From Acidilobaceae archaeon (GTDB lineage: Archaea > Thermoproteota > Thermoprotei_A > Sulfolobales > Acidilobaceae), in NCBI GenBank assembly GCA_027080775.1, contig JALWPV010000048.1, forward strand, positions 1 through 57,258: 57,258 bases of DNA, written 5' to 3'. The position numbers were made by a program, and so were the translations under genes. This document shows, one piece after another, positions 106 to 24,086 of this stretch. The notes under the pieces were generated by a model that saw only the letters and a list, made by a program, of their open reading frames with translations, was not told where the DNA came from and did not search any database. The stretch's first letter is position 1, and the number at the start of each line of letters is the position of its first letter.

Positions 106-3100
106 ATGTCGAGGGCAAGGGTAATTGCATCGCTGGCACTCGCGCTGCTCATGATAGCGGCGCCCCTAATGGCGCTCTATCACGCACCGACCGCGGCAGC
201 GCTACAGCCTAACACGACGATCAAGGTCTACCCCTACAAGATAGTCAAGGGCCAGGACGTCCTATTCACCGTAGTACAGACAGGCGGCGCCTTCACCCCC
301 GGCGCTACCCTATACGTGAAGGTGAAGAACCAGGACTCCTGGGGCACCGGCGACGGCTATGCCTGGATAGGCCTACCCTCAGGCCAGTACAAGATACCCA
401 AGGGCTCCTACTTCTACCTACCAGCCAACTACTATGACACAGACCTAGAGGGCTCGAACAACCTCAACACGGGAAGCGCCTACTTCCTTGTCTCAGACAG
501 CTCCGATGGCAGCAGTGGAGTGACGGGCGCGCAGATAACCGTTGAGAGCGGGAGCGTGCCCTACATCAGCGTGGGTGTGCCGCCCACCAGCGCTGCTTCC
601 TATATGCCGAGCGATATACTAGCTATATCTTACACCACTAACTCGCTCCCAGAGTTCACTGTCAACGCTAAGCCCTTCGAGTACTCGCCCGGCAGCGTGG
701 TGACACTCTACTACTACGTGCCCGGTAACACCGTCTACTTCTACTGGGACTACTACGGAGGCCAGCTTCTAGCAACAGCTAAGGGCGGCGTAGGCGAGGT
801 CCACATAAAGGTGCCCGACGCTCCCGAGGGCTTCCACTTCATAGTAGCCGTGAGCGACACTGGCTACGGAGCCTTCAACGTGATATACGTGAAACCCGAG
901 CTGATAGCGAGCCACTTCTCCATAGCTGGCGTAGCAAATGAGACCGTGACCTTCACAGGCAGGGGCTTCCCAGCCAACGCCGAGCTAGACACCACCCAGT
1001 ACGTGACGCTAACAGTCTATGACGGCGTCAACACCGGCACCATGAGGGCCCAGATAATCTCTGGTGGTACAGCAGATGCCCTGGGCAGGATGACACTAAC
1101 GATAAGGCTAATTGACAGCAAGCCTCCGACCGTGAAGGGTGGCCTAGTAGACATAACACTCTACTACAAGTCCGGCGACATAGACGACGTTGTCGGCGGG
1201 ACCTTCCAGCAGGGCCAGCTAGGCCCCGCTGGCGACGGCCAGGACACTATAGAGAATGTGCTAGCCATATCAACCCCCACCGCCTATGGGGACGAGGTCC
1301 TAATCGCTGGCTACTACCCGGGCAGCTACTTCACGCCCGGCACACCGGAGCCCAGCTCTGTCGGCAACTACATCTTTGTAACCGTGGTTAACTTCCCAGC
1401 CAACACTAAGGTCGGCATCTACGTTGGCTACAAGCTAGCGGGCACGCTCGTGACAGACAGCAGGGGAGCCGCCACCGGCTACATAATGGTGCCCGACCTA
1501 CCTGGCGTCGACAACAGCGGCACCCAGATAACCTACACGGTCAGGGCTCTAGCCCAGGACCCCAAGACCCATGGCACCCTAGTCGGAGTGGCCGCCAACG
1601 GCCAGGACTATATGATAACCATAAGCACTGACGCTGAGGCCTACTACGCGCCTTCGGGCTACGGCGCCTACGGTGACTACCTAGCAAGCGGCCAGCACAC
1701 GGTCACCGTGGAGATCTACGGCCTCTCACCCTTCGCCAAGGTAGACATCTATGAGGACATAACGGGCCTAGGCACAATCAACATACTGGACTTCGCCGAC
1801 GTATACCAGCCCGTGGTTCTAGAGGGAAGTGAGACCCCCTACTACTTCGTGGCAAATGCTGACGGCGTACTCGAGGTCAAGTACACCGTATCGTACCTAA
1901 CGCTATTCGACATACTCGGCGCCGCCTATGGCAACACCGGTGACAATGTGACGGTCTACGTTGACGCCACAACAGCAAGCGGCACCCCGCTGCTGACCAA
2001 CTACAAAGTGCTCACCTACCACATGATATTCCCCGCATACGGCGAGATAACCCAGGTAATTAGCTCCCCAGCCAACATAACACCCGCGCTCGACTCAGCA
2101 GGGCCCTTCCAGGTAATCCACCCAGGCGACTACATCGAGGTGCAGTTCTACAACCTAGTGCCTGGCACCTGCTACACTCTAACGCTCAACGGCGCCCCCG
2201 TGCAGCTCTACGACACCACCAACGCGCCGGTCTCCTGCGTGAAGGCAGACAACACTGGCACCATAACTGCCAGGTTCACGGTACCCAACAGCAGGTCAGT
2301 CATAGGCTTCGACGAGGTCGACGTTGTATACCTATCCGGAGTCCTACAGGGCCAGAGCGCTGGCTCCCACCTCTTCATAGCCTCGAGCCCGAGGGAGGAC
2401 CTCTACGGAACCGCCAAGGTCTTCGTATTCCCAACTGAGGCCAGCCCCGGCGACACGATATACATCGTGGGCGTGAACTTCGAGTCCAACGAGAACCTAA
2501 TAGGCGGCTTCTCCACAATCGGCACCCCGCAGAGTGGTACCGCTGACGCCCACGGCGCTGTAGCATTCAGCGTCACGGTGCCCAACCTGCCTGCTGGTAC
2601 CTACACGGTCTACATCGAGAGGACCGTCACCTACGAGACCTTCAACGCCATAATACAGATCGTGCCCAAGGTGGTAAGCGTCTCCTCGTCAAGCGTGCTG
2701 ACAGTGCTCTACAAGGCGGCTGGCCAGACCGTGAGCCTCCAGGTGGTTGGCGTCGAGCCCAACAGGGCCTACATGGTGTACTGGAGCGACAACCCCAACG
2801 TGCTGGGCGAGCCAATAACCAGCACTGGCGTCCCCGGCGTTGGGACCCCGCTCACCTGGTTCAGCGACTCCAACGGCGAGCTAACTGTGACCTTCACCGT
2901 GCCCTTCGGAGTAATAGGCAAGGCCTACTACGCAACCATAGTCCCCGCTGACAACCCGACGACCGCCATACTACCGCCTATAGAGGTTAAGATACTCCCG
3001 GCGCCATACTTCGACGTCGAGGAGTCGCCATACGTCATACCCGGCCAGGTGTTCAGTGTCGACTTCAACCTCACTGGAGCACTGGCCGACACTGCTACGG

Positions 3101-4731
3101 GCCTCTACAAGCTGTTCCCAAGCTTCTACAACACCAGCCTGCAGCAGGCTGACCTAACAGACATGATAAACTACTTCGTGGCCAATGGCAGGGCCTTCGC
3201 CATAATAACGATGCCCGACGGCAGCCACGACGTAGTACCGGCCACAATGCAGCCCATAGGCAATGGCATGCTGAGGATATCCTTCAAGGTGCCCAACGCC
3301 CAGGAGAGCGGCGTCATAGGCCTCGAGATAGGCTTCGCCCTAACCACGGTGCCCTCCATCTGGAACACCAGCAGCCAGTTCGACTACCCGCTCTACAACA
3401 CAGCCTACACCCAGCTCACAGTGGGCGGCCTCGAGCTAGTGCCCGGCGGCGGCATATTCCTGACTAGCGTGAGCGGCCAGCTGGCTACCGTCGTGAACAC
3501 CGTCAACTCGGCCGTGCAGGTGATAACCACCACCGTGCAGGAGATGAAGCCCGTCATAATGAACATAAGCGACACCGTTGCCTACATCAACACAACCCTA
3601 GGCGTAATGACCGCCAAGCTAGACGAGATAGAGGGCATGATAAGCGACTCCACCGCCAAGCTGGTGCAGAAGGGCGACGAGATCATGGCTGAGATCGACT
3701 CGCAGAGCGGCCAGGTGCTCATGGAGCTGGACGCCCTAGCCAAGCTAGTGAACGGCGCCTACGTGAACCTAACCAGCGGCCAGGCCGAGATAATGACGAG
3801 CCTAGGCGAGATCAACATGAGCATAGGCGACCTCGCCACCTTAATACACAGCATGGGCAACAACGTGATGGCAGAGATTGATGCAGTCAACGCGAGCCTA
3901 GCCAAGATAGTGGTGAGCGAGGGCGACCACGTGATAGCCGAGCTATCCGTGCTAGTCAACCAGCTACAGCCCCTGATAACCAGCCTCAACGGCACCATAG
4001 CGACTCTCCAGACCAGCATAGGGGAGCTGCAGGCCAACGTGACACAGCTACTAGCCGGCCAGGCCACCATAGAGAAGCTTGTGGTCAACCAGAGCGGCGC
4101 AGTGATAGCCGTCATCAAGACAACTGCTGGCCAGATGAACGCCACCCTAGCCTCCGCCCTAGAGATGCTGGGCGAGGGCCTGGCCAACGTGACCTCCCAG
4201 GCAATGAGCCAGCTACAGGCCATATCCAACAAGATAGACACCGCTAGCGGTGCCCTATCCAGCAAGCTAGACTCCGTGTTGGCAGCCGTCAACAACGTGA
4301 ACAGCGCCGTCTCAACTCTGGGCGACAAGCTAGACAGCCTCTCCAGCGCTGTCTCAACCCTAGACTCCAAGGTTGGCAGCCTAAGCGCCGCAGTCAGCAC
4401 GGTGAGCGGTAAGCTAGACACCGTCTCCAAGAAGCTAGGCGACATCTCAACGAGCCTAAGCGATGTCTCCGGCAAGGTGACAACCATACAGAGCAACGTG
4501 GCCGACGTGAAGAGCACTCTAAGCGACGTGAAGAGCACCGTGAGCAGCATATCCAGCCAGCTGAGCAGCCTATCCAAGAACGTGAACAGCCTGAGCAGCA
4601 AGGTAGACAAGGCCACCACTGAGAGCAGCGCAGCCAAGAGCAGGGCAACAGTGCTAGGCGGCACGACCGCTGGCCTAGTCATAGTCAACATAATCATAAC
4701 AGCCCTCGCTATGGCGAGGAGGCCAGAGTAG
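106..4731 (+). CDS. Giant S-layer / tetrabrachion-like surface protein
   Basis: A 1541-residue secreted surface protein, probably the main S-layer subunit. Residues 1-30 are a signal peptide (MSRARVIASLALALL then a hydrophobic core). Residues ~35-1110 are Gly/Tyr/Thr/Pro-rich beta-type repeats with many N-x-S/T sequons. From ~1114 to ~1510 the composition changes to Ala/Ser/Leu/Val heptads typical of a long parallel coiled coil. A hydrophobic segment (~1515-1533) and a short basic tail (ARRPE) anchor the C-terminus in the membrane. This order, globular head then stalk then anchor, resembles tetrabrachion of Staphylothermus and crenarchaeal SlaA/SlaB designs, with both parts in one chain. The ATG at 106 follows an aggtga ribosome site. 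Confidence 0.85.
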   Translation: MSRARVIASLALALLMIAAPLMALYHAPTAAALQPNTTIKVYPYKIVKGQDVLFTVVQTGGAFTPGATLYVKVKNQDSWGTGDGYAWIGLPSGQYKIPKGSYFYLPANYYDTDLEGSNNLNTGSAYFLVSDSSDGSSGVTGAQITVESGSVPYISVGVPPTSAASYMPSDILAISYTTNSLPEFTVNAKPFEYSPGSVVTLYYYVPGNTVYFYWDYYGGQLLATAKGGVGEVHIKVPDAPEGFHFIVAVSDTGYGAFNVIYVKPELIASHFSIAGVANETVTFTGRGFPANAELDTTQYVTLTVYDGVNTGTMRAQIISGGTADALGRMTLTIRLIDSKPPTVKGGLVDITLYYKSGDIDDVVGGTFQQGQLGPAGDGQDTIENVLAISTPTAYGDEVLIAGYYPGSYFTPGTPEPSSVGNYIFVTVVNFPANTKVGIYVGYKLAGTLVTDSRGAATGYIMVPDLPGVDNSGTQITYTVRALAQDPKTHGTLVGVAANGQDYMITISTDAEAYYAPSGYGAYGDYLASGQHTVTVEIYGLSPFAKVDIYEDITGLGTINILDFADVYQPVVLEGSETPYYFVANADGVLEVKYTVSYLTLFDILGAAYGNTGDNVTVYVDATTASGTPLLTNYKVLTYHMIFPAYGEITQVISSPANITPALDSAGPFQVIHPGDYIEVQFYNLVPGTCYTLTLNGAPVQLYDTTNAPVSCVKADNTGTITARFTVPNSRSVIGFDEVDVVYLSGVLQGQSAGSHLFIASSPREDLYGTAKVFVFPTEASPGDTIYIVGVNFESNENLIGGFSTIGTPQSGTADAHGAVAFSVTVPNLPAGTYTVYIERTVTYETFNAIIQIVPKVVSVSSSSVLTVLYKAAGQTVSLQVVGVEPNRAYMVYWSDNPNVLGEPITSTGVPGVGTPLTWFSDSNGELTVTFTVPFGVIGKAYYATIVPADNPTTAILPPIEVKILPAPYFDVEESPYVIPGQVFSVDFNLTGALADTATGLYKLFPSFYNTSLQQADLTDMINYFVANGRAFAIITMPDGSHDVVPATMQPIGNGMLRISFKVPNAQESGVIGLEIGFALTTVPSIWNTSSQFDYPLYNTAYTQLTVGGLELVPGGGIFLTSVSGQLATVVNTVNSAVQVITTTVQEMKPVIMNISDTVAYINTTLGVMTAKLDEIEGMISDSTAKLVQKGDEIMAEIDSQSGQVLMELDALAKLVNGAYVNLTSGQAEIMTSLGEINMSIGDLATLIHSMGNNVMAEIDAVNASLAKIVVSEGDHVIAELSVLVNQLQPLITSLNGTIATLQTSIGELQANVTQLLAGQATIEKLVVNQSGAVIAVIKTTAGQMNATLASALEMLGEGLANVTSQAMSQLQAISNKIDTASGALSSKLDSVLAAVNNVNSAVSTLGDKLDSLSSAVSTLDSKVGSLSAAVSTVSGKLDTVSKKLGDISTSLSDVSGKVTTIQSNVADVKSTLSDVKSTVSSISSQLSSLSKNVNSLSSKVDKATTESSAAKSRATVLGGTTAGLVIVNIIITALAMARRPE

Positions 4732-23651: not shown

Positions 23652-23698
23652 CTCCGGCACCCCTTTAGCTACCCAAGCAAGCCGCTGGGCTTAGTAGG

Positions 23699-23708
23699 CT
23701 TTAATAAG
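23699..23708. promoter_or_regulatory. TATA box of L12, possibly also the C/D RNA
   Basis: ctttaataag is about 50 bases upstream of the L12 ATG (minus strand), giving a leader near 26 bases. Read on the plus strand it sits about 45 bases before the candidate C/D box RNA and could start a slightly longer precursor. Confidence 0.4.
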
Positions 23709-23748
23709 CATTCCTCGCGCCCCTGGCTTCATGGGCCCTTAGGATGGC

Positions 23749-23819
23749 GGGGCTAATGATGATAGTCATGCCCTCGAGGGGGGTACCGATGAGTTAGACC
23801 CTGGGGTATCTGAAGCCTC
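23749..23819 (+). ncRNA. Probable C/D box small guide RNA
   Basis: A perfect C box ATGATGA (23756-23762) and D box CTGA (23810-23813) are flanked by a six-pair terminal stem (23749-23754 with 23814-23819, one G-T pair), which together make a kink-turn. An internal C'-like box CGATGAG lies at 23787-23793, with a weak D' just before it. Length and spacing fit archaeal 2'-O-methylation guides (~60 bases). The segment upstream of the D box (agaccctggggtat) would be one guide; its rRNA or tRNA target was not determined. Confidence 0.6.
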
Positions 23820-24001
23820 CCAGGCCTAGCGGGAAGCCCTGGGCTGGCTGGTACACTTCCTCAGCGCCCAACAAGCCTCCTCGGAGGCGTAGGCATGGGA
23901 TAGGTGCACTATAATCTGGCTAGCCCCTGGGCCCCTGCTCTCTATTAGCACTCCTTGGCGTGAGCCTGGATGATCCAGGAGGGTGCTGTGGCCTGCTGTG
24001 G

Positions 24002-24086
24002 TGCGGGGGGTGGGATTTGAACCCACGCAGGCCTACGCCATCGGGTCCTAAGCCCGACCCCTTTGGCCAGGCTCGGGCACCCCCGC
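24002..24086 (-). tRNA. tRNA-Leu (anticodon TAG)
   Basis: A class II tRNA with a long variable arm. Acceptor GCGGGGG/CCCCCGC (24080-24086 with 24003-24009), anticodon loop CTTAGGA with TAG, T arm GTGGG-TTCAAAT-CCCAC. The discriminator is A, and CCA is encoded (23999-24001). No intron. A TATA-like ctttaatact (24114-24123, minus strand) is at the right distance upstream. Confidence 0.95.

Follow-up and report, generated by a model that had tools for sequence, protein, structure and literature searches.

Results

A C/D box element between the L12 and tRNA-Leu genes

The window, by which we mean the whole stretch of 57,258 nucleotides of an Acidilobaceae archaeon contig that was analysed, contains a gap of 338 bp between the L12 gene (23304 to 23660, minus strand) and the gene for tRNA-Leu(UAG) (23999 to 24086, minus strand). 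Within this gap, on the plus strand and 88 bp away from the L12 start, lies an element with the layout of a C/D box guide RNA. It had been picked out from the letters alone (the sequence-only reading) for its exact C and D boxes, a terminal stem of six pairs and an internal C'-like box, all of which are indeed present. The features are as follows.

23749-23819, plus strand: putative C/D box sRNA gene, minimal extent; from the boxes, motif rarity, same-genus identity and family model matches
23749-23754, plus strand: terminal stem, 5' strand GGGGCT, pairing with 23814-23819
23756-23762, plus strand: C box ATGATGA, exact; from the sequence and motif scan
23763-23773, plus strand: D' guide, of which 23765-23773 (GTCATGCCC) pairs 9/9 with 23S GGGCATGAC
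23774-23777, plus strand: probable D' box TCGA, degenerate, keeping the GA of the k-loop; placed by eye, uncertain by about 1 nt
23786-23792, plus strand: C' box CCGATGA; from the sequence and motif scan, kept in the same-genus relative G002
23799-23808, plus strand: D guide CCCTGGGGTA, forming 10 pairs (1 G-U) with 23S UACCCCGGGG; plus-five position G23805
23810-23813, plus strand: D box CTGA, exact; from the sequence and motif scan
23814-23819, plus strand: terminal stem, 3' strand AGCCTC, forming six pairs with GGGGCT, one of them G-U

When both strands of the whole window were scanned for RTGATGA with CTGA downstream and a stem of at least five pairs, 23749-23819 was the sole place with this layout. 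In first-order Markov windows, the layout with a stem of six or more pairs turned up at a mean of 0.02 places, and the layout including the internal C'-like box occurred in none of 100 Markov-random windows. The internal boxes depart from the consensus: the C' box is clear, while the D' box, separated from it by a linker of 8 nt, retains only the GA of CUGA. Judged by eye, a CTGA-like D' box stands 12 nt after the C box in many family members, and several relatives have such a box in the C'/D' k-loop where the window has the degenerate TCGA. Guide regions are usually 12 nt long; the D guide region of this element is longer, at 17 nt. The same genome carries genes for fibrillarin and a Nop5-type (Nop-domain) protein, which adjoin each other on contig C84.

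Conservation of the element within the genus

In G002, a genome of the same genus, the gap is syntenic, with L12 on one side and tRNA-Leu on the other. Counting gaps as columns, the window and G002 are identical in 64 of 71 columns of the RNA (about 90%), in 69 of 113 columns before it and in 78 of 185 after it, so the flanks diverge while the RNA stretch stays alike. The G002 copy has a 2-nt deletion within the D'-C' linker and an A-to-G change that turns a U-A pair of the terminal stem into U-G. A plain DNA search of 40 relatives returned one relative that we count as true, again G002, the rest being short matches; two of the short-match loci (L004 and L008) were rejected as homologues, since on reading neither carries the RNA. 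The final covariance model gave no match in the other two genomes of the genus, which are 61 and 63% complete.

The segment between L12 and the element (23661 to 23748) is AT-rich and includes a near-palindromic TTTAATAAG segment that, as judged by eye, is conserved in G002, with its distance to the sRNA differing by some 24 nt between the two genomes. It may act for the L12 promoter and, on the opposite strand, for the sRNA.

A family across the order and the phylum

A first covariance model, made from two sequences, had matches with E values of 0.01 or lower in 80 of the order's 214 genomes. The second, made from 52 aligned matches of the first and used with a cut-off of E 0.001, matched 171 of the 214 (103 of 118 among those of good quality) and, in a phylum-wide sample of 398 genomes, 180, with a single match in nearly every genome. 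Of these 180, 62 belong to the same order and 118 lie outside it; some of the weak matches may not be this sRNA. We read 59 of the model matches (19 as loci and 40 chosen) and found, by letter pattern, both guides in 47, the D guide only in 10 and the D' guide only in 2. By the same measure, both guides are kept in 26 of the 37 matches read outside the order.

Five distant matches (L215, L216, L217, L219 and L223) keep the D guide while their D' guide differs, a pattern that looks like replacement of one guide and retention of the other. In genus g16 of family f3 (G025 and G118 to G123), the listed genomes gave no match though several are near complete, which suggests loss or strong divergence.

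Scanning named genomes with letter patterns yielded 51 loci, including ones in Pyrodictium, Aeropyrum, Caldisphaera, Staphylothermus, Fervidicoccus and Acidilobaceae bins; a stretch from a Clostridia bin (L117) was without a fitting D box and was dropped as a chance match. The 62 unique sequences used below were chosen by such patterns, which left out 14 of 101 stretches as not fitting. Five of the 14 resemble real members with shifted letters (L069, L073, L085, L135 and L149), and nine resemble chance. Since the patterns fix most guide letters, they account in part for how little the guides vary among the 62 sequences, and we do not count this as evidence. Among the rows found by the models alone, CCCT, CTCT or CTCC stands ahead of GGGGTA in the D guide in 46 of 60 usable rows; some of the remaining rows break a pair and some are misplaced script matches. 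Members whose guide letters break a pair do occur, for example L101, L188 and L193.

The proximity to L12, to which the sequence-only reading had drawn attention, is correct as a location and only as that: L12 lies near the RNA in 2 of the 118 family loci scanned, those of the window and G002, and the RNA is therefore not an L12 element.

Adjacent complements of both guides in 23S rRNA

A search of the rRNA and tRNAs for complements of both guides had been proposed as a check, and it found neighbouring sites in 23S. Both complements lie side by side in the genome's own intron-containing 23S gene (G000, contig C9), within GGGCATGACAGAAAAGTTACCCCGGGGATAACAG, just upstream of the peptidyl-transferase centre. 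The D' guide forms nine Watson-Crick pairs with GGGCATGAC, and the D guide forms 10 pairs, one of them G-U, with TACCCCGGGG. These are the best helices covering the plus-five position that each guide finds in this genome's 23S, the plus-five base is Watson-Crick paired for both, and the two predicted methyl sites are 16 nt apart. An ATACC-type target had been expected from the end of the D guide. A complementary 23S segment does exist; T23809, beside the D box, is unpaired with it, and hence the paired segment is UACCCC... and not AUACC.

Taken singly, both matches are unremarkable, their scores being reached by 567 of 3000 shuffles for the D guide and by 365 of 3000 for the D' guide. The pair, by contrast, is unusual: the joint score of two sites within 20 nt was reached by 13 of 5000 guide shuffles and by 15 of 5000 random window places; within 100 nt, the counts were 38 and 57 of 5000. 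Scores fell below those of 23S both in the available 826 nt of 16S and in the 45 tRNA matches scanned (of 47), the best tRNA scores being 8.4 and 5.0 against 9.4 and 9.0 for 23S. The tRNA scan was confined to tRNA letters, as a scan of 3-kb tRNA loci mostly matched flanks, and it left out two matches with incomplete loci (L020 and L042). The 16S gene ends at the end of contig C11 (L044) after about 826 nt, and the family search of the genome showed no other 16S piece. Two 16S candidates were set aside: an ATACCC segment that offers the D guide six pairs only and was dropped in favour of 23S, and a nine-pair match near the 16S start that, by our estimate of that start, falls in the leader.

We take the conserved 23S GGGGAUAACAGG to mark A2451 in E. 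coli numbering; the E. coli copy examined puts that A at 2443. Counted from A2451, the predicted methyl site of the D guide would be C2441. That of the D' guide would be A2425 if the D' box is TCGA, or C2424 if the box follows the C box at 12 nt, the arrangement of many relatives.

The 23S match itself (L045) spans about 5.2 kb and contains three open frames of 198 to 206 aa on its strand (719-1321, 1976-2596 and 2783-3379, minus). Short motifs in these frames, judged by eye, resemble those of LAGLIDADG homing endonucleases, and the frames point to three introns.

Covariation of guide with target and within the stem

Of 40 genomes searched for a guide-target comparison, 16 yielded the 23S segment. 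The D' target is GGCATGAC in 11 of them, where the guide has A and an A-U pair results, and GGCACGAC in the other five, where the guide has G and a G-C pair results (two of these five guides had escaped the letter pattern and were entered by hand). Guide A or G thus matches 23S U or C in 16/16 genomes. As the five genomes of the G form represent three genera of the window's own family, the change may be one event; the A-U pair is kept in two other genera of that family and in all other families read, and a G-form D' guide occurs outside the family at L143 and L192. The D guide likewise pairs in all 16 genomes, with one to two G-U pairs inside the core ten, and the base beside the D box is a mismatch to the target in eight of them. 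As a comparison of sequences, the compensatory guide-target difference lends evolutionary support to the proposed function.

The terminal stem also covaries. Among 52 aligned members, whose alignment was fitted to the model and so leans toward the model's stem, 94.5% of cells are paired and both-sided changes occur at all six pairs; the covariation score is 0.692, compared with a mean of 0.196 after shuffling and no more than 0.172 when the partners are slid.

Variation of the kink-turn at 3b:3n

The fifth letter of the C box and the second letter of the D box (3b:3n) form U:U in the window and in only 13 of the 62 unique sequences. The others have G-C (11), A-G (10), A-U (10), G-U (6), A-A (5) and further types. 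Both letters were left free by the selection patterns, and they covary, their mutual information being reached in none of 10000 shuffles, in a test that did not control for relatedness. The neighbouring 4b:4n is G-C in nearly all of the 62. Archaeal box C/D k-turns are described, in the part of PMC5689011 that we drew on, as strongly favouring U:U at 3b:3n; the window's own U:U resembles these kink-turns, and the scarcity of U:U in the family departs from them.

Discussion

We propose, with a probability of roughly 0.93, that the element at 23749-23819 is a double-guide C/D box sRNA of archaeal type that directs 2'-O-methylation of 23S rRNA near C2441 and C2424/A2425. That it is a C/D guide RNA of some kind was the core of the sequence-only reading, and comparative evidence now supports it: conservation limited to the RNA, adjacent 23S targets, a compensatory difference between guide and target, a covarying stem, and a family that extends over the order and into other parts of the phylum. 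The boxes, the stem, both complementarities, the conservation and the guide-target covariation can be read off the genomes directly.

Archaeal C/D sRNPs are assembled from L7Ae, Nop5 and fibrillarin on the guide RNA, and methylation then falls on the ribose of the nucleotide opposite guide position five. By analogy, L7Ae would bind the C/D and C'/D' kink-turns of this RNA and then recruit Nop5 and fibrillarin. Pairing would take place at two 23S segments separated by 8 nt and lying just upstream of the peptidyl-transferase loop, UACCCCGGGG for the D guide and GGGCAUGAC for the D' guide. Fibrillarin would then 2'-O-methylate the base opposite guide position five. This base would be C2441 in the case of the D guide; for the D' guide it would be either A2425 or C2424, according to the placement of the degenerate D' box. 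What we infer in this scheme is that the RNA is transcribed, assembles into an sRNP and directs methylation.

An alternative that keeps the RNA and changes its task is that it mainly holds or chaperones the folding 23S segment and directs methylation at one site at most. The targets of the two guides are near neighbours next to the catalytic core, help with folding has been proposed for double-guide sRNAs in the sections of PMC4644070 consulted, and the D' box, degenerate in the window, shifts its place within the family as judged by eye. Yet each guide forms a Watson-Crick pair at the plus-five base and the D box of the window is canonical, and we consider such a primarily structural role unlikely. 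A C/D box sRNA that acts elsewhere, on a tRNA or the missing half of 16S, and matches 23S incidentally would draw on the sizeable chance probability of each single guide match and on the approximately 650 nt of 16S that lie beyond the end of contig C11, outside the scan. The adjacency of the two 23S sites, the D' guide that differs along with the 23S base in 16/16 genomes, and tRNA scores (8.4 and 5.0) that stay below those of 23S (9.4 and 9.0) make this very improbable.

We give still less credence to the idea that the letters resemble a C/D RNA by chance in an untranscribed gap, or belong to an L12 regulatory element, for example part of a leader or promoter. Only 88 bp separate the element from the L12 start, and the promoter-like letters between them are, by eye, also conserved in G002. 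Against this idea stand the model matches found in 171 of the order's 214 genomes and the presence of L12 near just two of 118 loci (the window and G002); it moreover leaves the covariation of guide with target and that within the stem unexplained.

Read as a double-guide sRNA, the element shares with those already described its C, C' and D boxes and a probable D' box, the terminal stem, the plus-five geometry and two guides for rRNA sites within 100 nt, as far as the parts of PMC4644070 and PMC7994747 used here go. The double-guide class makes up 262 of 489 sRNAs in the former source, which, in the same part, gives nine consecutive Watson-Crick pairs as the pairing rule, relaxed for double guides. 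The D' guide has these nine pairs, whereas the D guide, with 10 pairs including one G-U, needs the relaxation. The portion of PMC4644070 consulted also reports most sites as confined to a single species, 152 of 195 in 16S and 255 of 334 in 23S; in contrast, the guide pair described here is kept over an order and partly beyond it.

The RNA class is well known, and Rfam C/D box families (the sR series) belong to it. For neither the window nor 20 loci from the model searches did any C/D family in Rfam 15 reach its gathering score, and a relaxed scan of the window with Rfam 15 gave no C/D family at 23749-23819. The guide letters and predicted positions were not tied to a described RNA among the matches listed in the literature, supplementary site tables lying outside the scope of that search, and the words methylation and methylated are absent from the accessible part of the text of PMC10516650, on the S. 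acidocaldarius ribosome. Possibly, the element itself is already listed under an sR number, and it may well have been seen by RNA-seq.

Tentatively, and at somewhat less than even odds, we suggest that few C/D sRNAs of the phylum are conserved as broadly as this one, a core guide that is nearly always in single copy. Its paired 23S sites beside the catalytic centre would have been kept across orders, when other guides reportedly turn over quickly, and its C/D kink-turn would have been freed from U:U, drifting through covarying alternatives. If this is true, the family offers a natural series for testing how the identity of 3b:3n affects sRNP assembly. For the genome at hand, an unannotated gap becomes a putative gene with named predicted target bases. 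The covariance model could be offered to Rfam and would annotate the gene in most genomes of the order, as the 171 of 214 matched indicate. Given that archaeal C/D guide sets are described as fast-evolving, with few shared sites, a guide pair retained across an order and into other classes points to a methylation, or else to a chaperoned fold, that is seemingly hard to lose.
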